This document shows, piece by piece, positions 8,753 to 49,744 of a stretch of DNA of 64,000 nucleotides. Source of the DNA: Lewinella sp. 4G2 (GTDB taxonomy: Bacteria > Bacteroidota > Bacteroidia > Chitinophagales > Saprospiraceae); contig NZ_LVWJ02000014.1 of the NCBI RefSeq assembly GCF_001625015.1, forward strand, positions 3,658,001-3,722,000. The letters run 5' to 3'. Positions within the stretch are counted from its first letter, which is position 1. Every line of letters begins with the position of its first letter. Made by a program: the position numbers and the translations under genes. A model generated the notes under the pieces. It was not told the DNA's origin, searched no databases, and was given only the letters and a program-made list of their open reading frames with translations.

Positions 8753-10678
8753 TTGTCTCCTACCGAAGTCCTGCAGAAATACTGGGGTTATCCCTCCTTC
8801 CGCCCCGGCCAGGCGGAGATCATCGAGGCCGTGATGCAGGGGCAGGACACCTTGGCTTTGTTGCCGACGGGTGGGGGCAAATCCCTTTGTTTTCAGGTTC
8901 CCGCTCTCGCCCTTCCCGGCGTTACGATTGTCATCAGCCCGCTCATTGCGCTGATGAAGGACCAGGTACGGCAACTGCGTAAAAGGGGAATCATCGCCGA
9001 AGCCATCTACAGTGGCCTGCGCCACCGCGACATCGACCGCATCTTCGACAACGCCGTTTACGGCAACACCAAGCTACTCTACATGAGCCCCGAGCGCCTC
9101 CGCACGGAGATGGCCCGGGCGCGCCTGGAAAAGATGAACGTCTCCCTCCTGGCCGTCGACGAGGCCCATTGCATCAGCCAGTGGGGTTACGATTTTCGCC
9201 CACCTTACCTCCAGATCGCTGAGGTCCGGGAACTCATCAACAAGAACGTTCACGGGGCGCTGACGCAGGTGCCATGTATAGCCGTAACGGCCACGGCAAC
9301 ACCGGAAGTCATCCTCGACATTCAGGACCATCTTGAATTTAGAAGGGATGCCTTCGTTTACCAGCAAAGTTTCGGAAGGGATAACCTGGCCTACGTTGTG
9401 CGGCGGCCCGGCAACAAGAACGAACAGATCAAAAAAGTGCTGGACGGCGTCCCCGGTAGCAGCATCGTCTACGTCCGCTCGCGGGGCCTCACCAAGCAGA
9501 TCGCTATCTACCTGCAAAGATGTGGGATCAGCGCCGCCGCCTACCACGCCGGATTAGACCCCAAAGAAAAAGACGCCCGCCAGGAAGCCTGGATCAACAA
9601 CCAACTCCGGGTCATCGTCGCTACGAATGCCTTCGGAATGGGTATCGACAAGCCGGACGTTACCAGCGTCATTCACTACGGTCCGCCGGATTCCCCGGAA
9701 GCTTACTTCCAGGAGGCCGGGCGCGGCGGCCGTGACGGAAACCTGGCCTACGCCATCATGCTCTACGATAGTGGCGACGGGAATCGACTACGCCGGCAGT
9801 GGCAGGATAGCTTTCCGCCCCTTTCAGAAATCCGCCGGATGTACCGCGCTCTGGGCAGCTACCTCCAATTGGCCACCGGTGCCGGCGACGGGGAAGCCTA
9901 CGACTTTGACATCGTCCAGTTTTGTAATCGCTTTGGCTTTGAGGTCCGGCCAGCTCTTTCCGCACTCAAAGCACTGGAAAGGGCCGGTTACCTGCTCCTG
10001 ACCGACGCCGTGCACCAGGCCGCGAAGATTCAATTCCTGGTATCTAAAGAGCAATTGTACGACTACCAGATCAAGAACCGCCGTACCGAAAGGTTGATCA
10101 AAACGATCTTGCGAACCACACACGGTGCCTTCCTCCAAGCCGTTAGTATTGACGAAGGGGCGCTGGCAAACTTCCTCAAACTATCGGTAACGGATCTCCA
10201 ACGCATCCTGAATATCATGGCCACCGAAGAAGTGATTGAATACTTCCCACAAAAGGACGCCCCGCAAGTGATCTTCCTGCGGGACCGCATCAATCCGGAT
10301 CACCTCACCATTGACCAAAAGGCCTACAAATTCCTGAAGGAACGGCACGAAGTCCGCATGGAAACCATGATCGCTTACTGTGAGAAAGACCTGATGTGCC
10401 GCTCCGTCCTATTATTACACTACTTCGGCGAAGCGGAGGCAGCTCCCTGCGGAAAGTGCGATATCTGCTTGGCGCAAAAGACGTCCGCCAAATCCGTCAC
10501 CCCGAAACGACTGTACGCAACCCTCCAGAACAAGATTGAAGGGGGTAATTCCATCTCGGTGGAAGAAGCCACGCGGGCTTACGGAAATATCCACCGGGAG
10601 ACCACCGAAGAAGCCCTCGCGGCGCTGGTAGAGGAAGGCCTCATCATCCGCGAAGGCGGCCAACTACGCAAGCCTTGA
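8753..10678 (+). CDS. recQ: ATP-dependent DNA helicase RecQ
   Basis: 641 residues. Motif 0 (YPSFRPGQ), Walker A (LLPTGGGKS, about 37-45), DEAH box with aromatic-rich loop (VDEAHCISQWGYDFRP, about 135), GRGGRDG motif VI, then the RecQ zinc site (CGKCDIC) and winged helix. No C-terminal HRDC domain. It unwinds DNA 3' to 5' in recombination and fork repair. The only usable start is TTG at 8753: an in-frame stop lies 19 bp upstream and no ATG lies between. The loop before motif Ia/II strand VPCIAVTATAT is longer than usual (NKNVHGALTQ) and contains a copy of the 17-bp repeat. The stop overlaps the next start (TTGA). Confidence 0.95.
   Translation: MSPTEVLQKYWGYPSFRPGQAEIIEAVMQGQDTLALLPTGGGKSLCFQVPALALPGVTIVISPLIALMKDQVRQLRKRGIIAEAIYSGLRHRDIDRIFDNAVYGNTKLLYMSPERLRTEMARARLEKMNVSLLAVDEAHCISQWGYDFRPPYLQIAEVRELINKNVHGALTQVPCIAVTATATPEVILDIQDHLEFRRDAFVYQQSFGRDNLAYVVRRPGNKNEQIKKVLDGVPGSSIVYVRSRGLTKQIAIYLQRCGISAAAYHAGLDPKEKDARQEAWINNQLRVIVATNAFGMGIDKPDVTSVIHYGPPDSPEAYFQEAGRGGRDGNLAYAIMLYDSGDGNRLRRQWQDSFPPLSEIRRMYRALGSYLQLATGAGDGEAYDFDIVQFCNRFGFEVRPALSALKALERAGYLLLTDAVHQAAKIQFLVSKEQLYDYQIKNRRTERLIKTILRTTHGAFLQAVSIDEGALANFLKLSVTDLQRILNIMATEEVIEYFPQKDAPQVIFLRDRINPDHLTIDQKAYKFLKERHEVRMETMIAYCEKDLMCRSVLLLHYFGEAEAAPCGKCDICLAQKTSAKSVTPKRLYATLQNKIEGGNSISVEEATRAYGNIHRETTEEALAALVEEGLIIREGGQLRKP
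9256..9272 (-). repeat. 17-bp dispersed repeat, copy 1 (in recQ)
   Basis: Complement reads GCACCTGCGTCAGCGCC, matching the consensus GCACCYGCGNCAGCGCC. Read on the recQ strand it encodes ALTQV (residues 169-173) in an extended loop of the helicase core. Confidence 0.75.
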
Positions 10679-11790
10679 ACATCGTCTGCACGGTAACCAA
10701 TGACCTGAGTCACGACCAACGGATGGATCGGATCTGTACCAGCCTCGTCAACGCCGGGCACCAGGTTGTCCTCGTTGGGCGCTTACGGAAGAACAGCCGG
10801 CCGCTACCCGAACGTCCTTACCGGCAGCACCGCATCACCTGTCGGTTTGATGCGGGCAAAGCGTTTTATTTGGAGTACAACTACAAACTGGTCCGCGAAC
10901 TGCGCCACTGGAAGTACGACGTCGTTTGCTCGGTGGACGTGGACACCCTCGCCGCAGGCGCCGCCCTCACCCGCGGATCCCAGCAATTGGTATTCGACGC
11001 TCACGAGTGGTTCCACATGACGCCGGAGGTCGTCAATCGCTCTTTAATTCGTGGCTTCTGGAAAGGGTTGGCGCGCCAGCTGATGCCCTTCACTGATCTC
11101 CGCTATACGGTGGCCCCTCAACTAGCTAAGCAACTCGCGCAGGAGTACGGATACCCCTTCGGCACCGTGCGCAACCTACCTCAGTTAGCACCCGCGGCAG
11201 CGCCTTATATACCGTTAGAAGATCAGCCAAAGATCATTTTGTACCAGGGGATGCTCAACCCCGGGCGTGGTCTGGAAACGGCTATCATAGCAATGGATTT
11301 GCTGGAAGATTGCGTGCTTTGGATCGCCGGGTCAGGACCGGAAGAAGATCAACTCCAGGCCCTCGCCGTCACCTTGAAGCATCCCGACCGAGTCAAGTTT
11401 CTGGGCTTCATTCCGCCTGACGAATTACCAGAGTTAACGCGTCGTGCTTGGTTGGGTATCAACTTATTAGCTAATTCGAGCCCGAGTTATTATTACAGCC
11501 TGGCGAACAAAGCGCTTGACTACGTGCAGGCAGGACTACCTTCCGTACAAATGGATTTTCCAGAATACCGGGCGCTGGCGGATCAATACGGTTGCTACCT
11601 CTTGCTAGAGGACTTGGTAGCACCAGATTTGGCGAAGCTTATCCAGGCGGTAGCAGATGATGAAGCAGCATACAATGAGCTACAGCGAGCCTGTACCGAA
11701 GCCGCCCCCGAACTCTGCTGGGCAAGCGAAGAGCAGGAGTTGCTCCGGCTTTGGAGCCAATTGTCACCAATCAAGAATGACCTAACTTGA
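10675..11790 (+). CDS. Glycosyltransferase, GT4-like
   Basis: 371 residues, two Rossmann-like domains in the GT-B arrangement. N-terminal half: HDQRMDRICTSLVNAGHQV and DAHEWF; C-terminal half: IILYQGMLNPGRGLETAI, WIAGSGPEEDQL, RVKFLGFIPPDELP and a PSYYYSLANKALDYVQAGLP segment equivalent to the nucleotide-sugar site. Likely makes a cell-surface glycan; donor and acceptor are unknown. It starts at TTG 10675, overlapping the recQ stop by 4 bases, so the two are probably translated together although their roles differ. The domain linker carries APAAAP (172-177), encoded by a copy of the 17-bp repeat. Confidence 0.82.
   Translation: MNIVCTVTNDLSHDQRMDRICTSLVNAGHQVVLVGRLRKNSRPLPERPYRQHRITCRFDAGKAFYLEYNYKLVRELRHWKYDVVCSVDVDTLAAGAALTRGSQQLVFDAHEWFHMTPEVVNRSLIRGFWKGLARQLMPFTDLRYTVAPQLAKQLAQEYGYPFGTVRNLPQLAPAAAPYIPLEDQPKIILYQGMLNPGRGLETAIIAMDLLEDCVLWIAGSGPEEDQLQALAVTLKHPDRVKFLGFIPPDELPELTRRAWLGINLLANSSPSYYYSLANKALDYVQAGLPSVQMDFPEYRALADQYGCYLLLEDLVAPDLAKLIQAVADDEAAYNELQRACTEAAPELCWASEEQELLRLWSQLSPIKNDLT
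11188..11204 (+). repeat. 17-bp dispersed repeat, copy 2 (in glycosyltransferase)
   Basis: GCACCCGCGGCAGCGCC, exact match to the consensus. In frame it encodes APAAAP in the linker between the two GT-B domains. Confidence 0.8.
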
Positions 11791-15731: not shown

Positions 15732-17885
15732 CTAGCGGGAGTTACCAGCAGCAATCGGCTCAGGATAGGCCACTGGCCCCTTGAAGTAGTCGTTGCCAAC
15801 CTTCAGAAAGTACCAACCGGGCTGATGCTTACCCCTGGCAATTGGGTAGCTGCGCGTCGTCCAGCCGCTGTCGTCCGTAGCTCCGCGCCAGACTTGGTAG
15901 TCGGTGCCAAACATGTCGGTCAGCCGTAACTCTGCGTCCGTCCCTGGGGGCAATTGGTAGCGGAAAACCATGGCTTCGGCATCCGCGTCAAATCGGACGT
16001 CCACCACGGTTGGTTCTTCGTCGACGACCAATTCAGTGCGCGTGCGTTCATTATAGATGACGACTGTTTCTTCGCCGCCCCGCGCCTGAATGGCCAGGTG
16101 TAGCGTACCCGCTCCCGAATCGAAATAGTAGGCGGAGGAACTACTTGCGTACACTTTTTCTTTGGATGTCAAATACGGCAGCCGGTCACCGAGTGCACGG
16201 AACACCATAGGCCGGTCGTGTGGGCAAGGGATGGATAAATAGGCCGGCTGTTCCGAAGTACTATTCCAATTCAAACTGAGGTCGTACTGGTCTCCGGCAA
16301 AAGCTTCGGTCAGCTCATAAACTACTCCGGCAGCCAGGGCGGTGGTCGCTTCCTGGTGGTCGGCAACTAACGGCCATTGTCCGTAAGCGTTGCTCAATTC
16401 CATCCCGGCCAGGGGAATATTGTGCTCGTGGACCGGGTCCGAAAGCCCGTGACCGGTCGCCACCGTGAGTTCTCCAACGGACTGTTCCGGGCAAACCATC
16501 CAGTCGCCGTAGTCCGTACAAGCTTCACTATTCGCCACGTGTGGGCGCGGCCGCAGGTGCAAGGCGGAAGAAGGGGGAGAAACGTGATGGTGGGCGTGGT
16601 GGCCCTGGTCAACCTTCGCTAACTCGGCCGGTGGATGGCTACCGCAGTGCATAGCTTTGGACGCATTCGTTGCTTGATCTTCTCCAGCAATTTTCTTGCT
16701 TGAAACTTGACCGCTCGCTTTCATCGGTGGAGATCCGGATGCTGGCAGCAGGTACTCGGCTCCATTGGGGAAAAATAAGCCCTCCTCACCTGGTACGAGA
16801 ATTTGGATGGCCTGGTCCACCCCGTGCAACTGAAGCCGATCAACGAAATTGCCGGAGGCCAACGGGGAAGCTACCTGCAGACCAACGGGGTAGCCGTGCA
16901 CCATTACGTCGGTCAGGTGGGGCCGCGGACCGATCACTCGAATACCTGCCTCATTACCCATTTTAATCTGGGTATCCTGGAGATAAGCATCACCAAGCAA
17001 GAGTCCCATTTTATTACCATTCAATTCCCAGCCGGTAGCCACGATTCTGTTGCCTTCTATTGATGCACCAATTTGGCAACCTTCCACCTGGTTGTTCTCC
17101 AAGGTGACGTTCTTGCGGAACTGCATTGCGGGAATCTTGATGCCCATTCCTTCACCCTTCCCCACTATGGTATTCTTGGCGAGAACAAAGCTCGTGGTGC
17201 GATTGTCCCAAACGAAATCGCGGTAAGCTGGGTGGATGGCATACTCAATCCCCACGCCCTCCGCTAGCAATTTTATTTCGTTGTTTCGAATGGTGTGCAG
17301 CGGGCTTCCACTACGGATGCCGATCCCAACTCCCGCCACTTCAATGAAATTTCCTACGAGGAGATACCCGCTCCCCAGCCCCGCCGGGCTCAGTTGGATG
17401 GCGACCCCATTCGTTACGGCGAAGCGGCAATTAATAATGCTTCCCCCTACCCCACCGGCGAGTTCGATTCGATCACCTACGCCCGCGAAGCTTACTTGCG
17501 AAATCTTCACCGCACCTGCGTCAGCGCCCACGGAAACGGTAGCTGCGCACGTCAAATTTTTGTTACCATGGAGAGTAAGCTTCCCGCCTTGATATACAAT
17601 TATCGTTGCCGCTGAGTTGGCCAACTCCAGCGGTGAGGCAGGGCTTGTGACTAGCTCGCCGCCCCGCACTACAAGGTGATTGAATTGGAAGGTTGACGAC
17701 TCCTCCGGCGCCAACTCGAGCCGCCCGAATACGAATACGGTGTCGTACTGCACCGAAAAATCCGTAATCACCGTCCGTTGCCCAAGCGGTACCATCAGAT
17801 TACCTGCTGATTGAGCCTTAGCCGACGAGGCATGCAGGCAGAAATAGGATAAAAGCAGTAGGTATTGGAGTAGTCGTAAGCGCAT
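15732..17885 (-). CDS. Secreted G8/beta-helix-like protein with His-rich segment
   Basis: 717 residues. Signal peptide 1-24 (ending AKAQ). The N-terminal part has the alternating strand pattern of a degenerate G8 domain (VPLGQRTVITDF, VFVFGRLEL, LVVRGGELV), followed by parallel beta-helix rungs (NNEIKL, NNQVEG, GNRIVATG). A His-rich segment (GHHAHHHV, then LHLRPRPH) lies near residues 425-450, and a C-terminal domain looks like a diverged type A sorting domain (LTDMFGTDYQVW, PGWYFLKV) but ends in an unusual tail. It is upstream of the CEMIP-like gene in the same unit and has its own promoter. Exact activity is unknown. It contains one 17-bp repeat read in the opposite sense (GADAGA, residues 120-125). 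Confidence 0.7.
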   Translation of the reverse strand: MRLRLLQYLLLLSYFCLHASSAKAQSAGNLMVPLGQRTVITDFSVQYDTVFVFGRLELAPEESSTFQFNHLVVRGGELVTSPASPLELANSAATIIVYQGGKLTLHGNKNLTCAATVSVGADAGAVKISQVSFAGVGDRIELAGGVGGSIINCRFAVTNGVAIQLSPAGLGSGYLLVGNFIEVAGVGIGIRSGSPLHTIRNNEIKLLAEGVGIEYAIHPAYRDFVWDNRTTSFVLAKNTIVGKGEGMGIKIPAMQFRKNVTLENNQVEGCQIGASIEGNRIVATGWELNGNKMGLLLGDAYLQDTQIKMGNEAGIRVIGPRPHLTDVMVHGYPVGLQVASPLASGNFVDRLQLHGVDQAIQILVPGEEGLFFPNGAEYLLPASGSPPMKASGQVSSKKIAGEDQATNASKAMHCGSHPPAELAKVDQGHHAHHHVSPPSSALHLRPRPHVANSEACTDYGDWMVCPEQSVGELTVATGHGLSDPVHEHNIPLAGMELSNAYGQWPLVADHQEATTALAAGVVYELTEAFAGDQYDLSLNWNSTSEQPAYLSIPCPHDRPMVFRALGDRLPYLTSKEKVYASSSSAYYFDSGAGTLHLAIQARGGEETVVIYNERTRTELVVDEEPTVVDVRFDADAEAMVFRYQLPPGTDAELRLTDMFGTDYQVWRGATDDSGWTTRSYPIARGKHQPGWYFLKVGNDYFKGPVAYPEPIAAGNSR
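17512..17528 (+). repeat. 17-bp dispersed repeat, copy 3 (antisense in the G8-like gene)
   Basis: GCACCTGCGTCAGCGCC, exact match to the consensus. The host gene is on the other strand, so the copy is translated as GADAGA rather than APASAP. Confidence 0.75.
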
Positions 17886-18827: not shown

Positions 18828-18835
18828 TATATTTG
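18828..18835 (+). promoter_or_regulatory. -7 promoter box of the TPR gene
   Basis: TATATTTG, perfect -7 consensus, 45 bp before the chosen ATG at 18881. It overlaps the in-frame TTG at 18833, which therefore cannot be the start. No TTG at ideal -33 spacing. Confidence 0.6.
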
Positions 18836-18880
18836 CGAAAGTTTCCTTCCTTATATCCAGCGTTACTGAGACCAAACCAC

Positions 18881-21800
18881 ATGAATTACCGACTCCCGAA
18901 GGTCACCCGGGCCCTGCTTGCAGGCCTCATTGGTACCTTGTTATTTGCCAACGCCCCCCTTTCTGGCCAGGCCACTACCGTATATACGGAAGCCTGGCGC
19001 ACCTTTAAAAAAGCCGAAGCCGACCAGAGTGAAGATCTGCTCGCCAAAGCGCAGCGGGAGTACGAAGAGGTCATCGAGATGCTGCTACCGATCCAAACGC
19101 CGGAAGCAGAACTGCTTCGTACTAAGGCGGAATTGAACCGTGCGAAGATTGCCGTCCGTCTTGGTAAGGTTGAGGGAGAGAAACTCATTCTGGATTTTGT
19201 CCGGCGCTACCAGCCAGATCCCATCGCTAACGAAGCGCTGCTGGAGATTGCCAATTACTACTTCAACGAAGGTGACCTGAAGAAGGCTACGGATTACTAT
19301 AAGCGCGTCCCGGCGGATCTACTCAGCGTCGAGCAGCGGGCGGAGCTTAATTTCCGGCTGGGCTACACCAACTTCGTCCAGAAAAAATTTGGTGAAGCGA
19401 AGCGCTACTTCCAGTTCAGTAAATCCGACCCCGGTGAGTTCTACTATCCGACGAATTACTACCTCGGGATGATCTACTTCTTCGAGGGCAATTACGACCA
19501 GGCCATCAGCCAGTTCAGCATTGCGGAGAAGGACCGGAAGTACAAAGCCTACATACCTTATTACCTCACCCAGATCTACTTCGCCCAGAAGCGCTACGAC
19601 GAGCTGATCGAGTACGCCGCACCTAAAGTGGGTTCGCGGGCGGTTCGGAATACCAAGGAGATGTCGCAGCTACTCGGCCAGGCCTACTTTGAGAAGGGTG
19701 ATTATACCCGCGCCCGCCCGCTGCTGGAGGCCTACGCCCGTGGCAACCGCCGGATGCAGGAGGAAGAGTTGTACCAACTTGGCTTCACGCAGTACAAACT
19801 CCAGGCATACCAGAATGCTCAGGAATCCTTTAAGGACTTGGCGGGGCAGAACAGCCTTCCCGGCCAGAGCGCCAACTATTACCTCGGTGATATCTACCTG
19901 CGCCAGGGTAACGGCCCGGCTGCTCGCAATGCCTTTGGCGCCGCGAGCCGGATGAACTTTGACCCCAACATCAAGGAGGAGGCGCTCTTCAATTACGCCA
20001 AATTAAGCTACGAACTCGGTTTTTCTCAGGACGCCATGGCCGCCATCAAGAGTTTGCCTACGACCAGCAAGTACTACGTGCAGGGTCAGGAATTGATGGG
20101 GAAGATCTTCAGCTCATCGCAGGACTTCGCCGGCGCCTTGGAGGTACTCGAAAAGATCCCCAACCGCACGCCGCAGTTACAGGAGGCTTACCAAAGGGCG
20201 GCGTTTGGCCAGGGGATGGTTTTGCTCCGCAAGGGCGATGTCGCAGGTGCCAAGGTTTTGTTGGACCGTAGCCTGGAGCAACCGATCGACAGCAAGCTGA
20301 GGGCCCAGGCCACCTACTGGAAGGCCGACATCGAACACATGGCGGGTAACTACCCCCAAAGCATTGCGTTGACGAATCAGTTTTTGGCCCTCGCCACGGG
20401 CATGCAGAACCTACCGGACCAGGCCAGCGTCCACACGGGCAACTATCTGCAGGGGTACAATTACCTCAAGCAAAATAACTACCGGGCTTCCGTGGATTAC
20501 TTCGTGAAGACGGTGCAGGGCATCGAACGCAACATCAACTACATCTCCGACCGCGACGTGCGGGAGCGGGTACTCGGCGACGCCGTCCTCCGGGCGGGTG
20601 ACGGCTACTTCAGCCAGAATAACTACAACCAGGCCGGCGTGTACTACGACGACGCCATTACGCGAAAAACTAATGGCTTCGTCTACGCCATCTTCCAGAA
20701 GGGCATGATCGAAGGCTTGACTGGGCAACCGGCGCGGAAGATCCTCGCCATGGAGGAATTGGTACAGCGCTACCCCACCAACGCTTACGCCGATGATGCC
20801 CTTTACCAGGCAGCGATTACTTACGTGGAGTTGAACCAACCGCAGCAGGCTCTGCCTCCCCTCCGCCGTATTGTAAGTGACTTCCGGGGTAAGTCTTTAC
20901 TCGTCAACCAGAGTTTACTTCAGCTCGGACTAATCTCCTTCAACCTGGGGAATACCGAGGCGGCCATCAACTACTACAAGCAGGTATTCACCAGCAACCC
21001 GACCCCGGAAGAGTCGGAGGTGGCAAAAAAGGCGCTGGAAGAGATCTACGTCAAGAAGATGGGCCGCTCCGATCTGTACTTTGACTTCCTCAGCACCATC
21101 CCCGGCCAGGAATTGGACGCCGACGGAAGGGAGAGTATCGTCTACGAAGCGGCGGTGAGCCAGTACGAGAATGGCAACTACGAGCGGGCCATTCCAGCTT
21201 TGACGGATTATTTGCGCCAGTATCCCCGTAGCACGAATGCCCTTTCGGCTACCTACTTCCGAGGGGATTCCTACCTGAACCAACGTTTGTACGCCGAAGC
21301 CCTTGGTGATTACGAAGCGGTAATTGCCGCCGGCCCGAGCGCTTACTACGTCAGTTCCCTCAAAAAAGGCAGCCTAATTGCCTACAATAGCCTACGCGAC
21401 TTCACGAAGAGCTACCGCCTCTTCACCCAGCTGGAGCAGGCGGCCGAAGACCAGGAGGTCAAAGTCGACGCTCAGATTGGAGCGTTGCGTGCGGCTTACC
21501 GATTGAATGACATCCAGGCTACGGAGACGTACGCCCGCAAGGTTTCCCAGAATCCCATTGCTCCCTCGGAACAAAGGACGACGGCTAACTTCTACCTGGG
21601 TAAGATCGCCTACGATCGGCAGGACTTCAATGCGGCGCGCCAGGCGTTTGCGACCGTCATCGAAAACTCTGATGATGAGCAAACTGCCGAAGCACGTTAC
21701 CTCGTCGCCAATAGCTACTATCTCGGAGGAGATCTGGACAAGGCCGAAGAACTGGCCAGCAATGCGAATACGGAAAGTAGTGGTCACCAATACTGGGTGG

Positions 21801-22033
21801 CCAAGTCCTTCATTCTTTGGAGCGACGTCCTCCGCAAGAAAAATGACCCCGGTACGGCCGTTGCCGTGTTGGAAGCCTTGCTCAATACGTACAGCGCGGA
21901 CCCCGATCTCGTTGCCGAAGCCCGTACTAAGCTGGCAGCAGCTAAGGCGGAACAGCAGGGCAGCAGCCGGATCAACGATCCTTCCAAGACGACCCGTCCT
22001 GGCTACCTGGAGATGGATGACAGTAATAATTAG
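18881..22033 (+). CDS. Large exported TPR-repeat protein
   Basis: 1050 residues from MNYRLPKV. Signal peptide of about 32 residues (LLAGLIGTLLFANAPLSGQ), then continuous tetratricopeptide repeats to about residue 1020 (for example AKRYFQFSKSDPGEFYYPTNYYLGMIYFFEGNYDQAI). The solenoid probably acts as a scaffold in the periplasm. In Bacteroidota a long TPR protein of this kind is often followed by a plug-less beta-barrel, as here (124 bp downstream). The pair may handle envelope or protein export, but this is inference. An upstream TTG in the same frame is excluded by the promoter. Confidence 0.85.
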   Translation: MNYRLPKVTRALLAGLIGTLLFANAPLSGQATTVYTEAWRTFKKAEADQSEDLLAKAQREYEEVIEMLLPIQTPEAELLRTKAELNRAKIAVRLGKVEGEKLILDFVRRYQPDPIANEALLEIANYYFNEGDLKKATDYYKRVPADLLSVEQRAELNFRLGYTNFVQKKFGEAKRYFQFSKSDPGEFYYPTNYYLGMIYFFEGNYDQAISQFSIAEKDRKYKAYIPYYLTQIYFAQKRYDELIEYAAPKVGSRAVRNTKEMSQLLGQAYFEKGDYTRARPLLEAYARGNRRMQEEELYQLGFTQYKLQAYQNAQESFKDLAGQNSLPGQSANYYLGDIYLRQGNGPAARNAFGAASRMNFDPNIKEEALFNYAKLSYELGFSQDAMAAIKSLPTTSKYYVQGQELMGKIFSSSQDFAGALEVLEKIPNRTPQLQEAYQRAAFGQGMVLLRKGDVAGAKVLLDRSLEQPIDSKLRAQATYWKADIEHMAGNYPQSIALTNQFLALATGMQNLPDQASVHTGNYLQGYNYLKQNNYRASVDYFVKTVQGIERNINYISDRDVRERVLGDAVLRAGDGYFSQNNYNQAGVYYDDAITRKTNGFVYAIFQKGMIEGLTGQPARKILAMEELVQRYPTNAYADDALYQAAITYVELNQPQQALPPLRRIVSDFRGKSLLVNQSLLQLGLISFNLGNTEAAINYYKQVFTSNPTPEESEVAKKALEEIYVKKMGRSDLYFDFLSTIPGQELDADGRESIVYEAAVSQYENGNYERAIPALTDYLRQYPRSTNALSATYFRGDSYLNQRLYAEALGDYEAVIAAGPSAYYVSSLKKGSLIAYNSLRDFTKSYRLFTQLEQAAEDQEVKVDAQIGALRAAYRLNDIQATETYARKVSQNPIAPSEQRTTANFYLGKIAYDRQDFNAARQAFATVIENSDDEQTAEARYLVANSYYLGGDLDKAEELASNANTESSGHQYWVAKSFILWSDVLRKKNDPGTAVAVLEALLNTYSADPDLVAEARTKLAAAKAEQQGSSRINDPSKTTRPGYLEMDDSNN

Positions 22034-22073: not shown

Positions 22074-22090
22074 GCACCTGCGGCAGCGCC
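22074..22090 (+). repeat. 17-bp dispersed repeat, copy 4 (intergenic)
   Basis: GCACCTGCGGCAGCGCC, exact match to the consensus, in the 124-bp gap between the TPR and barrel genes. It is non-coding here, which argues against a purely protein-level explanation for the repeat. Confidence 0.8.
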
Positions 22091-35644: not shown

Positions 35645-35717
35645 TGCGCTGCCGCAGGTGCGGAGTTTTTGGGTAGATCCAGGATTTACCCAATTACTAA
35701 GTACCTGCGTCAGCGCC
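35645..35717. repeat. Inverted pair of the 17-bp repeat (copies 5 and 6)
   Basis: Copy 5 (35645-35661, minus orientation) and copy 6 (35701-35717, plus orientation) each match the consensus at 16 of 17 positions and form facing arms. Between them is a second hairpin at 35671-35691 (arms GGGTAGATCC and GGATTTACCC). The structure starts 7 bp after the adhesin stop codon and could fold as a terminator-like element, although no clean T-run follows. Confidence 0.7.
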
Positions 35718-35789: not shown

Positions 35790-35875
35790 GCCCGGATGGC
35801 GGAATTGGTAGACGCGCCAGACTTAAAATCTGGTTTCCAGTACTGGAAGTACGGGTTCGACCCCCGTTCCGGGTA
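35790..35875 (+). tRNA. tRNA-Leu (anticodon UAA)
   Basis: 86 nt including the discriminator base. Acceptor arms GCCCGGA / TCCGGGT (G1-U72 wobble), D region GGCGGAATTGGTAGACGCG, anticodon stem CCAGA / TCTGG with loop CTTAAAA giving anticodon TAA at 35824-35826, a long class II variable arm (TTTCCAGTACTGGAAGT) and T arm ACGGGTTCGACCCCCGT. CCA is not encoded. Reads UUA and UUG. Confidence 0.95.
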
Positions 35876-35897
35876 CGATTCCTTCAGGGTAGCACGC

Positions 35898-36153: not shown

Positions 36154-36220
36154 AAGTAGTCAGTTTCTTAGCGCTAATGTCGTACTTTTCGGCTACTGCC
36201 TAACCTCAGCCCAACCGATC

Positions 36221-37855
36221 ATGACCAAACAAGAAAAAGCCGCCGCCGAACATGCTGACCACATGTTGTTGATGGTGAGCCGCCTCAACCACCGGCTCGA
36301 TAAAATCCACCTCGGAGGTGGCAAACGCCGCATCGCAAAACAACACGAGCGCGGCAAAATGACCGCCCGCGAACGCGTCGCCGCCCTCATAGACGAGGGA
36401 ACGGACTTCCTGGAGTTCGGCGCCTTCGCCGGCTACGAAATGTACGAAGAGCACGGTGGCTGCCCCGCTGCCGGTGTAATTACCGGCTACGGCCGCGTAC
36501 ACGGGCGGCTGTGTGTAATCGTTGCCAATGACGCGACCGTTAAGGCTGGCGCATGGTTTCCCATTACTGGCAAAAAGAACCTCCGCGCGCAAGAAATTGC
36601 CATGGAGAATCGCGTCCCCATTATCTACCTGGTAGACAGTGCCGGCGTGTACCTCCCCCTGCAAGACGAGATCTTCCCGGATAAGGATCATTTTGGGCGC
36701 ATCTTCAGAAACAATGCTCAGATGAGCGCGATGGGCGTGCCCCAGATTGCCGCCGTGATGGGCAGTTGTGTGGCCGGTGGCGCCTACCTCCCGATCATGT
36801 CCGACGAAAGCCTGATCGTGGAAGGAACCGGCAGTATTTTCTTGGCCGGGCCCTACCTCGTGCGTGCCGCCATCGGTGAAAAAGCGGATAAGGAAGACCT
36901 TGGGGGCGCCGACATGCACGCTTCCGTAAGCGGGGTGATTGACTACAAATGCGTCGATGATACCGACTGCCTGTTGAAGATTCGGGACCTCGTTGGCAGA
37001 ATGCCCAACTCACCCGTCACCCCCTTCAATCGCATCGCACCCGCGGCAGCGCCCGGTGGTGAAGACGGCATCCTCGGGGTACTTCCCGAAGACCGTGCCA
37101 AACCCTACAGCGGCCGCGAACTCATCGCTCAGCTGGTTGACGGCGGCGAGTTTACTGAGTTCAAAGAAGAGTACGGGCAGACGCTGCTCTGTGGCTACGC
37201 GCGAATTGATGGGTGGAGTGTTGGTATTGTCTCCAACAACCGCGAGGTCGTGAAGAGTGGTAAGGGCGAGATGCAATTTGGCGGCGTGATTTACTCTGAC
37301 TCCGCCGACAAGGCCGCGCGCTTCATCATGATCTGCAACCAGAAGAAGATTCCGCTGGTGTTTTTGCACGACGTCTCCGGATTCATGGTAGGCAGCCGTT
37401 CCGAACAGGGCGGCATCATCAAGGACGGCGCAAAGATGGTCAACGCCATGGCCAACAGCGTCGTGCCTAAGTTCAGCATCGTGTGTGGCAACAGCTACGG
37501 TGCCGGCAATTACGCGATGTGTGGGCGTGCCTACGACCCCAGGTTGATGCTATCGTGGCCCACCGCCCGCCTGGCCGTGATGGGTGGTGCCCAGGCAGCC
37601 AAAGTATTGCTACAAATACAGATCAGCAGCCAGAAGGCAAAGGGAGAAGTCGTCTCAAAAATGGACGAGGAGGCCCTACTAAAAAAGATCACGGACCGCT
37701 ACGACAAACAAACCAGCCCTTACTACGCTGCCGCCCGCTTATGGGTGGACGAGATCATTGACCCCAGAACCACGAGAGACTGGATCTCGGCGGGGATCGA
37801 AGCGGCCGGCTACGCACCGGTGAGTGAGTTTAAGATGGGGGTGTTGCAGACTTAG
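36221..37855 (+). CDS. Acyl-CoA carboxylase beta subunit (MCC-like carboxyltransferase)
   Basis: 544 residues from MTKQEKAAA. Two crotonase-fold halves: DSAGVYLPLQDEIFPDKDHFGRIFRN, GSCVAGGAYLPIMSDES and GTGSIFLAGPYLVRAAIGE in the first, and VFLHDVSGFMVGSRSEQGGIIKDGAKMV, GNSYGAGNYAMCG and GGAQAAKVLL in the second. The FPDKDHFGRIF and GGAYLP segments point to the methylcrotonyl/geranyl-CoA carboxylase branch (leucine or isoprenoid breakdown) rather than acetyl-CoA carboxylase. The biotin-carrying alpha subunit is not in the window. The linker between halves holds APAAAP (273-278), encoded by the 17-bp repeat. The frame is open 96 bp further upstream, but the family start is here. Confidence 0.9.
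   Translation: MTKQEKAAAEHADHMLLMVSRLNHRLDKIHLGGGKRRIAKQHERGKMTARERVAALIDEGTDFLEFGAFAGYEMYEEHGGCPAAGVITGYGRVHGRLCVIVANDATVKAGAWFPITGKKNLRAQEIAMENRVPIIYLVDSAGVYLPLQDEIFPDKDHFGRIFRNNAQMSAMGVPQIAAVMGSCVAGGAYLPIMSDESLIVEGTGSIFLAGPYLVRAAIGEKADKEDLGGADMHASVSGVIDYKCVDDTDCLLKIRDLVGRMPNSPVTPFNRIAPAAAPGGEDGILGVLPEDRAKPYSGRELIAQLVDGGEFTEFKEEYGQTLLCGYARIDGWSVGIVSNNREVVKSGKGEMQFGGVIYSDSADKAARFIMICNQKKIPLVFLHDVSGFMVGSRSEQGGIIKDGAKMVNAMANSVVPKFSIVCGNSYGAGNYAMCGRAYDPRLMLSWPTARLAVMGGAQAAKVLLQIQISSQKAKGEVVSKMDEEALLKKITDRYDKQTSPYYAAARLWVDEIIDPRTTRDWISAGIEAAGYAPVSEFKMGVLQT
37037..37053 (+). repeat. 17-bp dispersed repeat, copy 7 (in acyl-CoA carboxylase beta)
   Basis: GCACCCGCGGCAGCGCC, exact match. In frame it encodes APAAAP in the variable linker between the two halves of the carboxyltransferase. 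Confidence 0.8.
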
Positions 37856-40389: not shown

Positions 40390-41148
40390 CTACTCCCACT
40401 TCCTTTCCGTATCCAACTCCGGCCATTGCATGTCTAGCCCCTCCAGGGCTTCTACGATGATGTCCGTCATCAGGTAGTCCCGGTACCAGCGCGAGTCAAC
40501 GGGGATAATGTGCCAGGGTATCTCGCTACGGTTCAACACGTCGTTGTACGCTGCGCGGTATTTATCCCAGTGTTCTCGTTCTTCCCAGTCACCGTCGTTG
40601 TGCTTGTAGTACTTCTCCGGTTCCTGCAGCCGTTCCGTCAATTCTTCTACCTGCTGTTCCTTGCTGAGGTGGAGGTAAAATTTTAGAATCAGGGTGTTAT
40701 TATCGTAAGCGAGCAGCTTCTCAAAGGCATTGATGGAGGCGATGCGCTTATCCACTTTTTCCTCGTCGATCCAACCGTGTACACGCTGGATCAGTACGTC
40801 TTCGTAGTGGCTGCGGTTGAAGATCACCATCTCCCCTTTTGCAGGCGCCTGCTTGTGGATGCGCCAGAGAAAGTCGTGGGCAAACTCTTCGTCGGTCGGT
40901 TTCTTCCAGCCTACCGCCCGCAAACCAAATGGTGCACAGGCACCAAATACATTTCGCATTGCGCCATCCTTGCCACTCGCGTCCATCCCCTGAAGAATGA
41001 TGAGCACGCTGTGCTTCCCTTCGGCCACCAATTTCTGGTGCAACTCCGCAATCCGCTCGGCCCGCTTGCTGGATTGCTTCCGGGCGGATTTCTTATCGAG
41101 GTCTTCCGGTGGCCGGGTAGAGATTGTATTGAGATCAATGGTAGCCAT
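40390..41148 (-). CDS. ppk2: Polyphosphate kinase 2 family protein
   Basis: 252 residues. Walker A GMDASGKDG (54-62), lid region (FNRSHYEDVLIQRVHGW) and the Walker B-type DNNTLILKFYLHLS strand are those of PPK2, which moves phosphate between polyphosphate and nucleotides. The short single-domain form and the RNVFGACAPFGLRAVGWKKPTDEE stretch fit the soluble nucleotide-phosphorylating class; direction of the reaction is not readable. The 5' leader contains a 17-bp repeat 29 bp upstream of the start. Confidence 0.92.
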   Translation of the reverse strand: MATIDLNTISTRPPEDLDKKSARKQSSKRAERIAELHQKLVAEGKHSVLIILQGMDASGKDGAMRNVFGACAPFGLRAVGWKKPTDEEFAHDFLWRIHKQAPAKGEMVIFNRSHYEDVLIQRVHGWIDEEKVDKRIASINAFEKLLAYDNNTLILKFYLHLSKEQQVEELTERLQEPEKYYKHNDGDWEEREHWDKYRAAYNDVLNRSEIPWHIIPVDSRWYRDYLMTDIIVEALEGLDMQWPELDTERKWE

Positions 41149-41176: not shown

Positions 41177-41193
41177 GGCGCTGTCGCGGGTGC
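41177..41193 (-). repeat. 17-bp dispersed repeat, copy 8 (upstream of ppk2)
   Basis: Complement reads GCACCCGCGACAGCGCC, consensus match with A at the variable position. Non-coding; sits 29 bp before the ppk2 start, in the sense orientation of that gene. Confidence 0.75.
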
Positions 41194-41282: not shown

Positions 41283-43235
41283 TTACCAAAAGTAACCGAC
41301 CAAAATGAAGGTGATGATCAGCAGAAGTACCGCCTGGTACCGGTAATTCTTGTACCAGGGCAAATCCTTCAACTCTTCCGTTTCCTCCGCGATCAAATCG
41401 GACGTCCACGTATAATTGGCAATCTTCTCCGGAGCCGGAGGTGCCGTCATGAGGCTGACGCCGTAGTTAACGATCATGCACGACAGGAAGAGGTAGAACG
41501 TACGGTGCAAGAAGTGCATCTCCATGAAGAAGGAGTCACTCCCAGAGAATTGTAGGTACAGGTAGATCAGCGTAAGCACCGCCCCGAATATTAAGCTCGC
41601 GAAGGCACCCTGGCCGTTGACCCGGCGTGAGAACAATCCTAAAATGAAGGCCGCCGCAATCGGCGGAGCGATGAAACTTAGGATGATCTGCAGGTACTCA
41701 AACAATGAGTCAAACTTCTCAATCTGAGGGGCCCAAAGGCAGGCGAGTACCACCAGCACTAAAGTGGAGATCTGACCGGTCCGCACCAACTGCTTGCTAG
41801 TCAGGTCTGGCTTGATCTTCTGGGCAAAGTCCATCGTGATCAACGTCGAGGCGGAGTTGAAGGTGGCGCTCACGGAAGACATCATAGCCGCCAGGAGACC
41901 TGCCAGAACTAGTCCTAGGATACCCGTAGGTAGCATCTGGAACATCAGCATGGGGTAGGTCGCGTTGGGGCAATCGATCAGGTTTTCACAGAGCTTTCCG
42001 TTGGGAAATTTGTATCCCATTTCCGCGAAGTTGAACCCGTCCGGCAACAAACTTTGCTGCTGGAGATAGACAATCGCCGCGGTGCCCGGCAGGACCATGA
42101 TAAAGAGCACCGGTAGTTTCAGCAGGCCAGCGAAGAGGGCACCCCAGCGCCCGTGGTTGATGTCCTTAGCTCCCAAAACCCGCTGTACCATGAACTGATT
42201 ATTGGCCCAGAAGTAAAAACCAAGAATAGGTGCGCCCAGCAGCAGACCGGTCCACGGCATGAAGCCATCTCCCCCGCTACCGAGGAAGAACTCCCGCCAG
42301 GTATCACCCGTAGGCCGGACGAGGCTAAGTACCTCATCCGCCGAGGAAGGCTGGTACACTGCATCCGAGTAGATTCGCTCCGTGATGGGCACGGAACTCA
42401 GGTTGAATTGCTTTGGATCAAAGGCATCCAGTGGGTATACGCCGTAGGAGACACCATTGATTATCTCTTGGCGGATACCCGTCGCATCAAACTCCGGGGA
42501 GATGATACTGCCCAGCGAACTACCCGGGCCGGAAAGCACCTCCGCAACGCCGTTAGGATTCGGTAAGGTACCGGCCGCCCCCATCTGATTCAGGCCAGCG
42601 ATCATCTCATCCCAGCCCCCAATACTTTGGAAGGTAAAGTAGGTGATCATACAGCTACCAATGACCAGCAGAATAGCCTGAATGACCTCCGTTTGAATGA
42701 CCGAGTTCAGACCACCGGGAACGGTATAGGCTGCCGCCGCAAGGGCCAGAATACCGACGACAGCAACGGTGGACAAGTCCGGGAACAACAATTTCAGGAT
42801 AACCGTCCCCACGAACAGACCCGCCGCCGTGTCAATCAGTACGTTACCGACAATGGTAATAAAACTGAAGTAGTAGCGGGACCGCACGTCATAGCGCCGC
42901 TCCAGGAATTCCGGCATGGTATACACCTGCGACTTCAGATAGAACGGCAAAAAGAAGATGGCAAAGAAGACCAGGACGACCGAAGCCAACCACTCGTAGT
43001 TAAAAACTTGTGTATTCGTTTTGTAAGCATCCCCCGCCAATCCGACCAGCGTTGAACTTGAGATATTGGCCGCAAACAAGGAGATACCAACGATGGGCCA
43101 GGTCATGTTCCGGCCGGCCAGGAAGTACTCCTCCGATGAGGCTGCTTTTGCACTGTATAATCCGTAACCAATAATGAAGATGGCGTAGACGGCCATAACG
43201 ATGTAATCCCAGTGGGATAACGCAAATGCATCCAT
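41283..43235 (-). CDS. Sodium/solute symporter (SSS family, SGLT-like)
   Basis: 650 residues with about 14 hydrophobic segments. Family hallmarks: SSEEYFLAGRNMTWPIVGISLFAANISSSTLVGLAGDAYK near the N-terminus, GGLNSVIQTEVIQAILL, and AAMMSSVSATFNSASTLITMDF in the middle. The closest group is the glucose/galactose-type (SGLT) branch; substrate is probably a sugar, but this is inferred. It carries an extended loop with acidic and Gly/Pro residues around 225-300. It is preceded by a 248-bp gap and ends 135 bp upstream of ppk2. Confidence 0.9.
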   Translation of the reverse strand: MDAFALSHWDYIVMAVYAIFIIGYGLYSAKAASSEEYFLAGRNMTWPIVGISLFAANISSSTLVGLAGDAYKTNTQVFNYEWLASVVLVFFAIFFLPFYLKSQVYTMPEFLERRYDVRSRYYFSFITIVGNVLIDTAAGLFVGTVILKLLFPDLSTVAVVGILALAAAAYTVPGGLNSVIQTEVIQAILLVIGSCMITYFTFQSIGGWDEMIAGLNQMGAAGTLPNPNGVAEVLSGPGSSLGSIISPEFDATGIRQEIINGVSYGVYPLDAFDPKQFNLSSVPITERIYSDAVYQPSSADEVLSLVRPTGDTWREFFLGSGGDGFMPWTGLLLGAPILGFYFWANNQFMVQRVLGAKDINHGRWGALFAGLLKLPVLFIMVLPGTAAIVYLQQQSLLPDGFNFAEMGYKFPNGKLCENLIDCPNATYPMLMFQMLPTGILGLVLAGLLAAMMSSVSATFNSASTLITMDFAQKIKPDLTSKQLVRTGQISTLVLVVLACLWAPQIEKFDSLFEYLQIILSFIAPPIAAAFILGLFSRRVNGQGAFASLIFGAVLTLIYLYLQFSGSDSFFMEMHFLHRTFYLFLSCMIVNYGVSLMTAPPAPEKIANYTWTSDLIAEETEELKDLPWYKNYRYQAVLLLIITFILVGYFW

Positions 43236-45643: not shown

Positions 45644-46756
45644 CTATTGCTCCACTTCCGGAGACAAATTGAAGTTGTGCATGTCGTCTCCCACCAGCTT
45701 CGCGCGTTGGGCGGGTTCGTTCCCACCAAGCGTTACGCGAACGCTGCGGTTACGTTTTGCCCGCCAGTAGGCCAAGCGTACGGATGCGCCGGGTTCATAC
45801 CTACTCAGCACCTCTTGCATTTGCTGCGCACTTTGTACGGAGATCCCGTCGATTGAAAGTAGGATATCGCCAACTTCTAGTCCGCTGCGCATCGCCGCTT
45901 CTCCGGCAATGAGGCGCTTCAGGATTACCCCTTTTGCCCGCTGCATGCCGGCCGTTCTGGCCTGGGCGTCATTCACGGTTTGTACGTATACTCCCAGGGT
46001 GGCGCGGCGCACCTCACCGTAATTCTTTAGATCAGACAGAACGCGTTTAGCCAGGTTACCGGGGATGGCAAAATTAAAGCCTTCGTGGCGGCCGCTCTCG
46101 CTTAAGATAGCGGTGTTGATACCAATTAGCTCGCCACGGTCATTGACCAGTGCTCCCCCACTACTCCCCGGGTTCACGGCGGCGTCCGTTTGCAGAAAGC
46201 TTTCAATCCTCGCCTCCCCACGCAAAGCATCAATACTGCGGCCCCTGGCGGATAGAATGCCCGCCGTTACGGTGGAACGTAGACCAAACGGGTTTCCGAT
46301 GGCCAGCAGCCAATCACCAATCTGTAGGCTATCACTATCACCAAAAACGGCACTGGCCAGCAGTTCATCCGCCTCCACCTTCAATAAGGCAAGGTCAGTA
46401 TCTAAATCGCTACCGATCACCTCGGCCCATAACTCCCGGCGGTCGTAAAGGGTCACTCGAATTCGCTCGCTCCCATCAATCACGTGATGGTTTGTGGCAA
46501 TGTATCCTGCCTCGTCGACAATGACACCGGAGCCCTTAGTTGAGCCATGACTCGCTACACCTATTCCTCTGATGGACACCACCGTAGGCAAGATGGCTTG
46601 CACGCTTTTAGTGAGTGAAGGCCTTTCAATTTGATTGCTCACGTAACTTAATTCGGGCGCTGCCGCAGGTGCGAGGTAAGTTTGGAACAAGAATGCGCCA
46701 GACATTCCGGCTAGTAAGGACCCAAGAAATAGAAGGAGAACCAGGCGTAATTTCAT
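45644..46756 (-). CDS. Membrane-anchored HtrA/DegS-like serine protease
   Basis: 370 residues from MKLRLV. An N-terminal transmembrane anchor (about 4-27) is followed by a short linker, a trypsin-like domain (about 45-225) with His91 in TNHHV, Asp121 in TDLALL and Ser199 in PGSSGGAL, and one PDZ domain (about 260-345; AMRSGLEVGDILLSIDG). Such proteins perform envelope quality control. The frame is open to 46849 but the extra 31 residues are not family-like. The linker holds APAAAP at 29-34, encoded by the 17-bp repeat. Divergent from the small membrane gene at 46856. Confidence 0.92.
   Translation of the reverse strand: MKLRLVLLLFLGSLLAGMSGAFLFQTYLAPAAAPELSYVSNQIERPSLTKSVQAILPTVVSIRGIGVASHGSTKGSGVIVDEAGYIATNHHVIDGSERIRVTLYDRRELWAEVIGSDLDTDLALLKVEADELLASAVFGDSDSLQIGDWLLAIGNPFGLRSTVTAGILSARGRSIDALRGEARIESFLQTDAAVNPGSSGGALVNDRGELIGINTAILSESGRHEGFNFAIPGNLAKRVLSDLKNYGEVRRATLGVYVQTVNDAQARTAGMQRAKGVILKRLIAGEAAMRSGLEVGDILLSIDGISVQSAQQMQEVLSRYEPGASVRLAYWRAKRNRSVRVTLGGNEPAQRAKLVGDDMHNFNLSPEVEQ
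46656..46672 (-). repeat. 17-bp dispersed repeat, copy 9 (in the HtrA-like gene)
   Basis: Complement reads GCACCTGCGGCAGCGCC, exact consensus match, in the sense of the gene. In frame it encodes APAAAP between the membrane anchor and protease domain. Confidence 0.8.
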
Positions 46757-46829
46757 GTGGTGGACAAACGAAACGGATTCCCATGATGTTGCCGCGGAGA
46801 ACGACAAACCAGACCTCCCTCTTCCACCG

Positions 46830-46837
46830 TACTTTTG
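46830..46837 (+). promoter_or_regulatory. -7 promoter box of the dapF operon
   Basis: TACTTTTG, perfect -7 consensus, 18 bp before the ATG at 46856. It overlaps the alternative in-frame TTG start (46835) and rules it out. Confidence 0.55.
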
Positions 46838-46855
46838 CAAGCAGAACAACTCTTC

Positions 46856-48724: not shown

Positions 48725-49744
48725 ATGAATTTCGAGGTAGACCAACGGGTGAGGATGAAGCGAACGGAGAACGTCGGTACCGTCACGCTTGTCCTGCCCG
48801 GAAACCTGGTGCAGGTTAAGTTAGATGGTGGGCTCGGTCACATCCCCATCCCCGCTGAAGCACTTGAATTGGTTTCACCGCCTAAGCCCAAGCCCGCCCC
48901 ACCCGTGGTGGTACAACGTACGGTCAGCAAGGCCGTCCTCCACGAGGAAAACGGCGTCCAGCTCGCATTTGACCCACAACTTAACAATGAGGCAGAACCC
49001 GTGGCTTACGAAGTTTACCTGCTCAATAGTACCAGCCATAAGATCATCTTTGAACTGAAGGCCCTCACCGGCAGTAATCAACGTTGGAGCAAATCCAGCA
49101 TTCTGGAGCCCAACAGTAAGAAGCGATTGGAAGCCATCGAGTACCGCTGGCTGAACGAAAAGTTATCTCTTGAGCTCGACGTCAGGACCGTCAACGTTGG
49201 TGGTACCGGGCCCAGGCACTTTGAAAAGGTCCGCGTCAAGCCAAGCCAATTCTTTGGTAAGTACGTGGACGTCCCTGAACTCTACCGTGAGGCCCACCTC
49301 TATCCGGTCTTCAGCCGTTTAGACTCAACGAACACCGCACCCGCGGCAGCGCCCCCTAATACCGGAAGCCTCAAGGAACTTACCCGAAAACACCTGGCGA
49401 GCAAACCTAAACCGCAACCCAAAAAGCAACTCACGCAAACGGATATTCGGGAACGATTGGAGTTTTCCGAAACGTTGGATCTGCACCTCACCGCATTGGT
49501 AGAAGATCCCGCAGCCGTACCCAAACATGAAGTTTTGCAACTTCAGTTAAAAGAATATGATGAGTACCTGGACCGCGCCCTACGGTTGGGTGTCGACAGC
49601 GTATTCATCATTCACGGAGTTGGCAACGGCGTACTGAAACGTGCCATCCATAGCCGTCTTCACCGGACAAAATTCATCCGGGAATTCAAGAATGAATTCC
49701 ACCCCAAGTATGGATTCGGGGCTACTGAGATCATTTTTGACTAA
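48725..49744 (+). CDS. DUF2027/Smr-domain protein (MutS2-like C-terminus)
   Basis: 339 residues. The N-terminal region (1-200) fits DUF2027: DQRVRMKRTENVGTVTLVLPGNLVQVKLDGG, then a beta-rich segment. The C-terminal Smr domain (about 250-339) has LDLHLTAL, IIHGVGNGVLKRAIHSRL, and FGATEIIFD. Smr domains are DNA- or RNA-nicking modules, here in a cytosolic protein. The linker holds APAAAP (205-210), encoded by the 17-bp repeat, next to a proline/lysine-rich stretch. A TACCTTGC box (48699) is 19 bp upstream of the start. Confidence 0.85.
   Translation: MNFEVDQRVRMKRTENVGTVTLVLPGNLVQVKLDGGLGHIPIPAEALELVSPPKPKPAPPVVVQRTVSKAVLHEENGVQLAFDPQLNNEAEPVAYEVYLLNSTSHKIIFELKALTGSNQRWSKSSILEPNSKKRLEAIEYRWLNEKLSLELDVRTVNVGGTGPRHFEKVRVKPSQFFGKYVDVPELYREAHLYPVFSRLDSTNTAPAAAPPNTGSLKELTRKHLASKPKPQPKKQLTQTDIRERLEFSETLDLHLTALVEDPAAVPKHEVLQLQLKEYDEYLDRALRLGVDSVFIIHGVGNGVLKRAIHSRLHRTKFIREFKNEFHPKYGFGATEIIFD
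49337..49353 (+). repeat. 17-bp dispersed repeat, copy 10 (in Smr gene)
   Basis: GCACCCGCGGCAGCGCC, exact match to the consensus. In frame it encodes APAAAP in the linker between the DUF2027 and Smr domains. Confidence 0.8.

Follow-up and report, generated by a model that had tools for sequence, protein, structure and literature searches.

A dispersed 17-bp word in dialects across the genus Neolewinella, a candidate self-DNA label in Bacteroidota

We found that a non-palindromic 17-bp core, GCACCYGCGNCAGCGCC, occurs in 888 exact copies in the 5.21 Mb genome of a marine bacterium of the genus Neolewinella (Saprospiraceae), 443 on the forward and 445 on the reverse strand, or one per 5.9 kb. 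An abundant two-stranded word of this kind, in dialects, is present in all 21 genomes of the genus that were searched. In our moderately confident reading, the word labels self-DNA in the way that the DUS and USS uptake sequences do. A function cannot be read from conservation and abundance alone; a role of the label in DNA uptake is what we infer.

The window, that is, the whole 64-kb stretch of DNA that was analysed, had been reported in the first-pass annotation to hold ten sites, and a window scan recovered all ten at the reported coordinates and strands. Eight are exact, 35645(-) and 35701(+) carry one mismatch each, and six of the ten lie within open reading frames (ORFs) and four outside. 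The scan also revealed one-mismatch copies beyond these ten, at 16544(-), 20234(-), and 63410(-). With up to three mismatches the window contains 16 matches versus a shuffle mean of 1.98, and none of the 100 shuffles reached 16. The exact and one-mismatch core copies are as follows.

9256..9272, minus strand: exact copy, inside the RecQ-type helicase ORF 8753-10678(+)
11188..11204, plus strand: exact copy, inside the glycosyltransferase ORF 10675-11790(+)
16544..16560, minus strand: one mismatch, inside ORF 15732-17885(-)
17512..17528, plus strand: exact copy, inside ORF 15732-17885(-), which has a weak beta-helix match
20234..20250, minus strand: one mismatch, inside the TPR protein ORF 18833-22033(+)
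22074..22090, plus strand: exact copy, intergenic, between ORFs 18833-22033(+) and 22158-23795(+)
35645..35661, minus strand: one mismatch, left half of a pair that is inverted and points outward
35701..35717, plus strand: one mismatch, right half of the same inverted pair
37037..37053, plus strand: exact copy, inside the carboxyl transferase ORF 36125-37855(+)
41177..41193, minus strand: exact copy, intergenic, between the PPK2 ORF 40390-41148(-) and the SSF transporter ORF 41283-43235(-)
46656..46672, minus strand: exact copy, in the trypsin/PDZ protease ORF 45644-46849(-), near the N-terminus, read as APAAAP
49337..49353, plus strand: exact copy, inside the Smr/DUF2027 ORF 48725-49744(+), read as APAAAP
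63410..63426, minus strand: one mismatch, inside ORF 56875-63960(-)

The mismatch at 16544(-), a C for an A at core position 12, matches the dialect of N. antarctica. The two halves of the inverted pair, with 39 bp between the cores, are located upstream of a tRNA-Leu (35790-35876). Of the two intervals earlier described as free of copies, 1-9 kb and 50-64 kb, the second is not quite empty, owing to the one-mismatch copy 63410(-). Such empty window ends mean little, since the largest gap between sites on contig C11 reaches 24 kb, a size expected under random placement.

Markov models of orders 1, 3, and 5 predict 0.012, 0.020, and 0.032 copies per genome, and a reversed control pattern gave 0/0 matches in the whole genome, so that a chance origin of the word, with 888 copies observed against about 0.03 expected, is ruled out. 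In a 464 kb sample of the genome, the 14- and 17-mers with the widest dispersal are forms of the word, and the same 464 kb contain 80, 27, 3, 22, 162, and 834 matches with 0, 1, 2, 3, 4, and 5 mismatches, respectively, which is a sharp peak above background. A high-ranking 11-mer with the repeat unit ACTCGCA was set aside as the product of local tandem arrays. The motif is longer than first described: the core is preceded on its 5' side by a weaker pyrimidine-rich tract, approximately CCnnTTnCYY, and followed on its 3' side by a C and A-rich DNA, with flanking information that fades gradually. The core as a whole is no palindrome and has short arms only in its middle, CTG-CGN-CAG. Among the 69 sites on C11, the spacing has a CV of 0.92 versus 0.98 for random placement, with 32% of the random sets as low; after the merging of sites within 1 kb, the values are 0.72 and 0.83, with 13% of the random sets as low. 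Two equal spacings on C11 were considered as a sign of duplicated elements, and this was rejected: the places of one pair share no similarity, and those of the other are partly similar, internally repetitive stretches. In addition, a scan of IMG/VR with the core matched at least 120 stretches; among the matches listed (80), 79 stretches had one match and one had two in the same direction, so no word-rich phage was seen there, which says little about the phages of this genus.

The gene context was determined for 433 sites in 12 genus genomes (464 kb of the host genome and 80-200 kb from each of 11 others), with genes called by a simple dicodon caller and each genome scored with its own site model, seeded from words of the same data. 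We found that 233 of the 433 sites are coding, versus 86-91% of the DNA (2.06 Mb), and 195 sites lie within or next to gaps that total about 221 kb, giving an intergenic density several times the coding density. The coding sites occupy all six frames, with 118 of them on the coding strand and 115 on the template, and with all frames and both strands in use a protein motif is rejected, as the first-pass annotation had argued. Its further claim that the word is no strand-polar signal is borne out by the near-equal genome-wide strand counts and by the orientation relative to GC skew, 102 versus 98 among the 200 of the 433 sites that lie in clear-skew stretches.

Across the genus, the word changes in dialects. 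Of the 20 genus-mates, 17 contain the form GCACCNGCGNCNNCGCC in 140-1407 copies, with 0-18 for the reversed controls, and the remaining three in 5, 29, and 6 copies. Two of those three are sisters in the tree and have CYGCGCTCCGSCGCC in common, with 269 and 218 copies and no more than 41 in any other genome. The third, G011, has a word of its own, TTGCTACTTTGAAG, with 256 copies and none in the other 20 genomes. Compared by eye with a genus tree of two proteins built with FastTree, the dialects follow the phylogeny inside the genus; some of the named loci and the numbered genomes come from the same organisms, so the locus and tree comparisons are not independent. No such word was found in samples of about 80 kb from each of five other genera.

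It is possible, though unlikely, that a chromosome-organising or nucleoid protein instead binds at the word and needs hundreds of such anchors, which would keep the copies in place; drift in the specificity of this protein would give rise to the dialects. A genus-wide distribution with one main word per genome, on both strands and in all contexts, would suit such a protein. The cores are also better conserved between relatives than the flanks: in one 20 kb stretch, where five of eight sites could be aligned with G008 and six of eight with G003, 68/70 and 77/84 fixed core positions are identical (92-97%), versus 74.7% and 76.5% of the flanks. Furthermore, 25 of the 34 close pairs point outward, with eight inward and one in the same direction (33 of 34 inverted), an arrangement that could fit a dimer or a loop. 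Against this, the orientation shows no GC-skew bias, the placement on C11 is as random, and we know of no chromosome organiser that uses hundreds of non-palindromic 17-bp sites.

REPs are extragenic and palindromic and move by insertion, and the first-pass annotation had offered a mobile palindromic repeat as its other reading. Like REP/REPIN elements, the word is a dispersed short repeat that sometimes forms inverted pairs, and if it were a short mobile element akin to REP/REPIN or MITEs, the single copies would be decayed halves of such pairs. The outward inverted pairs would agree with this, as would the gaps of at least five residues found at the site in 6 of 47 orthologue comparisons, versus 7 of 235 in random windows. 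These 47 comparisons are of a site with an orthologue, not independent sites, and in a few of them the orthologue bears a site as well; 38 of the 47 have no gap at the site. The carboxyl transferase site (37037) lies in a loop whose length varies by at most two residues among 18 genus orthologues, none of which has a gap of five or more, and the uroporphyrinogen decarboxylase site shows no gap of any kind in five orthologues. In the RecQ ORF, an 8-residue insertion beside 9256(-) sets the host genome apart from 20 genus orthologues, all of which lack it; the copy is nevertheless exact at this place in N. antarctica, so the insertion is not the carrier of the site. Copies therefore arise mostly by substitution, not insertion. 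Unlike in REP/REPIN, more than half of the sites are genic (the 233 coding ones, in all frames), the core is not a palindrome, and its flanking information fades gradually; the 34 close pairs compare with 30.5 expected from density alone. The proposal of a mobile repeat thus does not stand up, and we consider it very improbable. Nor are the copies confined to those first seen, close to the Markov level in number, or kept by protein-level conservation, the three outcomes that had been named as fatal to a dispersed repeat.

We attach just as little probability to a transcriptional element, such as a terminator hairpin, a promoter, or a regulator site. The higher density between genes and the ability of the inverted pairs to form long stems would speak for it; more than half of the sites, on either strand, are inside genes, and the density is similar in convergent (30 sites in 32 kb), tandem (112 in 133 kb), and divergent gaps (53 in 56 kb). 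The inverted pairs are not concentrated between convergent genes, and the orientation to gene starts (117/101) or gene ends (78/94) has no strong bias. A recombination hotspot like Chi or a polar signal like KOPS would share the genome-wide abundance of Chi and has the slimmest chance of all, given the lack of polarity by strand or GC skew and a length of 17 bp, far beyond that of known Chi words. The mobile, transcriptional, and polar readings are accordingly rejected on the context, gap, and strand counts.

For a label that marks self-DNA for uptake, we propose the following course. A surface or periplasmic receptor would bind the GCACCYGCGNCAGCGCC core, aided by the weaker flanks, and DNA of kin would preferentially enter through ComEC and recombine with the aid of DprA. 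Word-matching alleles would be over-represented among the incoming DNA, so that point mutation and recombination would build up copies at any place where a gene allows them, and a receptor preference drifting between species would produce the dialects. The better conservation of the core than of the flanks between relatives, the lack of the word in the samples of five other genera, and the self-DNA preference of Riemerella columbina in the same phylum also speak for this reading. ComEC is present in the host genome, the one genus genome searched for it, and DprA in 20 of 21 genus genomes, absent only from the 55% complete G010; both are weak evidence, since ComEC is also found in 10 and DprA in 11 of 14 control genomes. 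Type IV pilus hallmarks, as represented by the two families searched, were not found in the genus: the prepilin motif PF07963 matched in none of the 21 genomes, and the ATPase family PF00437 gave no full-length match in them. In 11 of the 21, a match to part of a frame about 940-1070 residues long just reaches the PF00437 cut-off, at 24.9-25.5 bits, and the two such frames that were checked (host genome, below the cut-off; G011, at the cut-off) are ClpB. If both hallmark searches are right, the receptor, whose existence we infer, would be something other than a type IV minor pilin.

The likeness to an uptake signal noted in the first-pass annotation is partly upheld and gives the best reading: it extends to abundance, strand balance, coding and non-coding placement, origin mostly by substitution, dialects, and the presence of ComEC and DprA, but the spacing is not detectably more even than random and the pilus hallmarks searched for were not found. 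The known DUS/USS systems use type IV pili, and their spacing is more even than random; here the spacing is not significantly even. The sites also coincide with gap-prone places at a higher rate than random windows do, which counts against an uptake label, as do the mostly outward pairs, unlike the DUS inverted pairs, which differ in orientation and serve as terminators. A search of the open PMC literature, preprints excluded, found no paper on transformation in the genus.

HIP1 of cyanobacteria, a palindromic octamer, is likewise a very abundant dispersed word of unsettled role; in contrast, the Neolewinella word, at 17 bp, is not a palindrome and has flanks and dialects. In the case of the Neisseriaceae DUS, which the minor pilin ComP reads, two reports (PMC3630211, PMC12616744) describe copies that number from hundreds to thousands, both within and between genes, with common inverted pairs and with dialects that follow phylogeny, among them one in which a base is inserted, all of which resembles our observations; N. 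meningitidis has about 1900 DUS in 2.2-2.3 Mb (PMC3630211). Compared with DUS, the Neolewinella word is different, longer, and of lower density, its host belongs to Bacteroidota and not Pseudomonadota, no pilus hallmark of the two families was detected, and its inverted pairs are mostly outward. The Pasteurellaceae USS, as described in PMC12616744, combine a strong core with weaker flanking tracts over about 30 bp in total and also have dialects. Unlike the USS, with two AT-rich tracts downstream, the unrelated word reported here has its weak tract mainly 5' and pyrimidine-rich, in a genus in which no pilus hallmark of the two families was found. Within the phylum, PMC7965970 reports that Riemerella columbina prefers its own DNA, an equal amount of which halves transformation, with R. 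anatipestifer or E. coli DNA having an effect only once a tenfold amount is added. This self-preference is a likeness in the same phylum; R. columbina belongs to Flavobacteriaceae, and only A/T-rich k-mers, and no word, were identified in it (PMC7965970).

To our knowledge, Bacteroidota is a phylum without a known DNA self-label. We see about even chances that the word is a third, independent origin of a self-label, in Bacteroidota, with a receptor other than a type IV minor pilin and with rapid dialect change up to full word replacement, as in G011. If this is true, it would add a third case, in another phylum, and would show that type IV pili are not needed for self-labels to evolve. For a receptor search the word offers a ready bait, and the 21 genomes, with dialects graded from one-base changes to a different word, form a natural series in which to follow the co-change of receptor and site. 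If the role is another, such as chromosome organisation, the word would still be an undescribed genome-wide code.

All ten sites that the first-pass annotation had listed for a 17-bp word in the window, with the core GCACCYGCGNCAGCGCC, were recovered at exactly the same positions and strands. Three further copies outside that list were found in the window scan:

16544, minus strand, core copy with one mismatch
20234, minus strand, core copy with one mismatch
63410, minus strand, core copy with one mismatch

The window covers C14:3658001–3722000 of the 5,213,657-base genome of Lewinella sp. 4G2 (G000). Exact copies in this genome number 443 on the forward and 445 on the reverse strand, and the reversed pattern, used as a control, does not occur. 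This count, which the annotation had proposed comparing with a Markov expectation, far exceeds the 0.012, 0.020 and 0.032 copies per genome expected at orders 1, 3 and 5 from models trained on a 464 kb sample of the same genome. The matches cluster tightly, and intermediates are few; GCACCYGCGNCAGCGCC occurs at 80, 27, 3 and 22 sites with zero, one, two and three mismatches in the 464 kb, and the reversed pattern at 0, 0, 11 and 42. In the copies aligned from this sample, the core is 17–18 bp long and, taken whole, shows no palindrome. It is preceded by a weaker pyrimidine-rich part, roughly CCnnTTnCYY, in which 89% of 106 copies have C at the fourth base upstream of the core. On its 3' side are a C and A-rich DNA, the conservation declining gently in both directions.

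Among named relatives, the window's carboxyl transferase (36125–37855) is closest to that of Neolewinella antarctica, at 87% identity; proteins of other Neolewinella and Lewinella come next. We therefore placed the genome in Neolewinella. Exact GCACCYGCGNCAGCGCC is present in 17 of 20 genus-mates, with at most 136 copies each, and in none of 39 relatives of other genera. The looser GCACCNGCGNCNNCGCC reaches 140–1407 copies in 17 of the 20 (reversed controls, 0–18), and outside the genus 1–8 copies in eight of the 39 (controls, 0–2). It is scarce in the genus-mates G001 (5), G007 (29) and G011 (6). A de novo search showed that G001 and G007 have their own words, related to the common one: CYGCGCTCCGSCGCC has 269 and 218 copies there, respectively, and at most 41 in any other genome of the genus. 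The word of G011, TTGCTACTTTGAAG, has 256 copies and is absent from the other 20. From these counts, each of the 21 genus genomes searched has an abundant two-stranded word; no comparable word was found in the 79–80 kb read from each of five other genera of the family. In a two-protein tree, G001/G007 and G000/N. antarctica are sister pairs and G011 forms a long branch; compared by eye, the dialects follow this tree.

Other repeats were also seen. Short-unit tandem arrays vary in their unit between species, as in the examples below, and one of those in G000 adjoins a copy of the 17-mer:

G000, ACTCGCA unit: locus L019 near 2897 and locus L022 near 15658
G002, GCAGGTT unit: loci L155–L164
G005, GGTTGCAGG-type unit: loci L176 and L178

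The 50 bp at 7476–7525 of locus L192 are a different dispersed repeat, belonging to that species group, with matches at over 25 further places in G003.

The placement was surveyed at 433 sites in 12 genomes, using a separate site model per genome and including G011's own word. Coding sequence holds 233 sites, in all six frames unequally, and makes up 86–91% of the DNA read; tandem gaps hold 112 sites, divergent gaps 53 and convergent gaps 30, at similar densities, and five sites lie at edges. Coding sites are divided between the coding and template strands (118 vs 115), and, where GC skew is clear (200 sites), the two orientations are used about equally (102 vs 98). Spacing on contig C11 shows no distinguishable departure from random, and 34 neighbours at most 300 bp apart were seen against 30.5 expected from density alone. 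These 34 comprise 25 outward, eight inward and one same-way arrangement. The window has such an inverted close pair at 35645–35717, and close copies across the genus are likewise nearly always inverted, mostly outward. Loci L411 and L412, ~9 kb apart on C11, are partly similar (best shared piece 78% identical over 157 bp) and internally repetitive, with equally spaced inverted site pairs.

No gap was present in the orthologue at the site in 38 of 47 comparisons, so substitution is the rule. Some gap was found in 9/47 and a gap of at least five residues in 6/47, compared with 8/235 and 7/235 for random windows; hence, the sites lie at somewhat gap-prone, tolerant places. Among 18 carboxyl transferase orthologues, seven are equal in length, two shorter by one residue and nine by two. 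The uroporphyrinogen decarboxylase site is at the same place in N. antarctica and N. marina, with no gap against four other sequences, the window's among them. The copy in the window's RecQ-type helicase gene (9256–9272) adjoins an eight-residue insertion found in none of the 20 genus orthologues. At the corresponding place N. antarctica lacks this insertion but has an exact copy, GCACCCGCGGCAGCGCC, so site and insertion arose separately; the N. antarctica site arose without a change in length.

In one 20 kb stretch, G014 is 78.3% identical to G008 and 76.6% to G003 over the aligned part. The fixed core positions are 97.1% identical to G008 (68/70; 5/8 sites aligned; flanks 74.7%) and 91.7% to G003 (77/84; 6/8 sites aligned; flanks 76.5%), and in single alignments the cores are complete where the flanks have diverged. 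Since random windows reach 92% identity in 20% (G008) and 17% (G003) of cases, a single site is never conclusive; over the whole site set, the core conservation is telling.

Of the competence genes that the annotation had suggested looking for, ComEC is encoded in G000, the one genus genome searched for it, and DprA in 20 of the 21 genus genomes. Three genomes outside the genus have matches above 400 bits to the pilus/secretion ATPase family PF00437. Within the genus the matches to this family are only partial, at 20.8 bits in G000 and just at the cut-off in 11 of 21 genomes (24.9–25.5 bits, frames of ~940–1070 residues); the two such frames that were checked, from G000 and G011, are ClpB. The prepilin motif PF07963 was found in 0/21 genus genomes, vs 8/14 control genomes. 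A minor pilin, the usual receptor, is thus not evident from the two pilus families searched.

The early comparison with uptake signals agrees with the abundance, strand symmetry and dialects, but not with the search for a pilus. Abundance, strand symmetry and dialects, together with context tolerance, substitution origin and conservation, give the profile of the uptake sequences of Neisseriaceae (DUS) and Pasteurellaceae (USS), and we know of no other class that combines them. The Neolewinella word would work alike, yet we do not file it under DUS or USS, because the pilus feature was not found and uptake is what we infer. A chromosome-organising protein could instead read the word, which we regard as rather improbable. 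Self-labels are described as known only in Neisseriaceae and Pasteurellaceae as of 2025 (PMC12616744), and Riemerella columbina, also of the Bacteroidota, reportedly has a preference for self-DNA for which no word was identified (PMC7965970). On the basis of the DUS/USS profile and this literature, we propose that the word is somewhat more probably than otherwise an uptake-type self-label of Neolewinella, with a putative non-pilin receptor.
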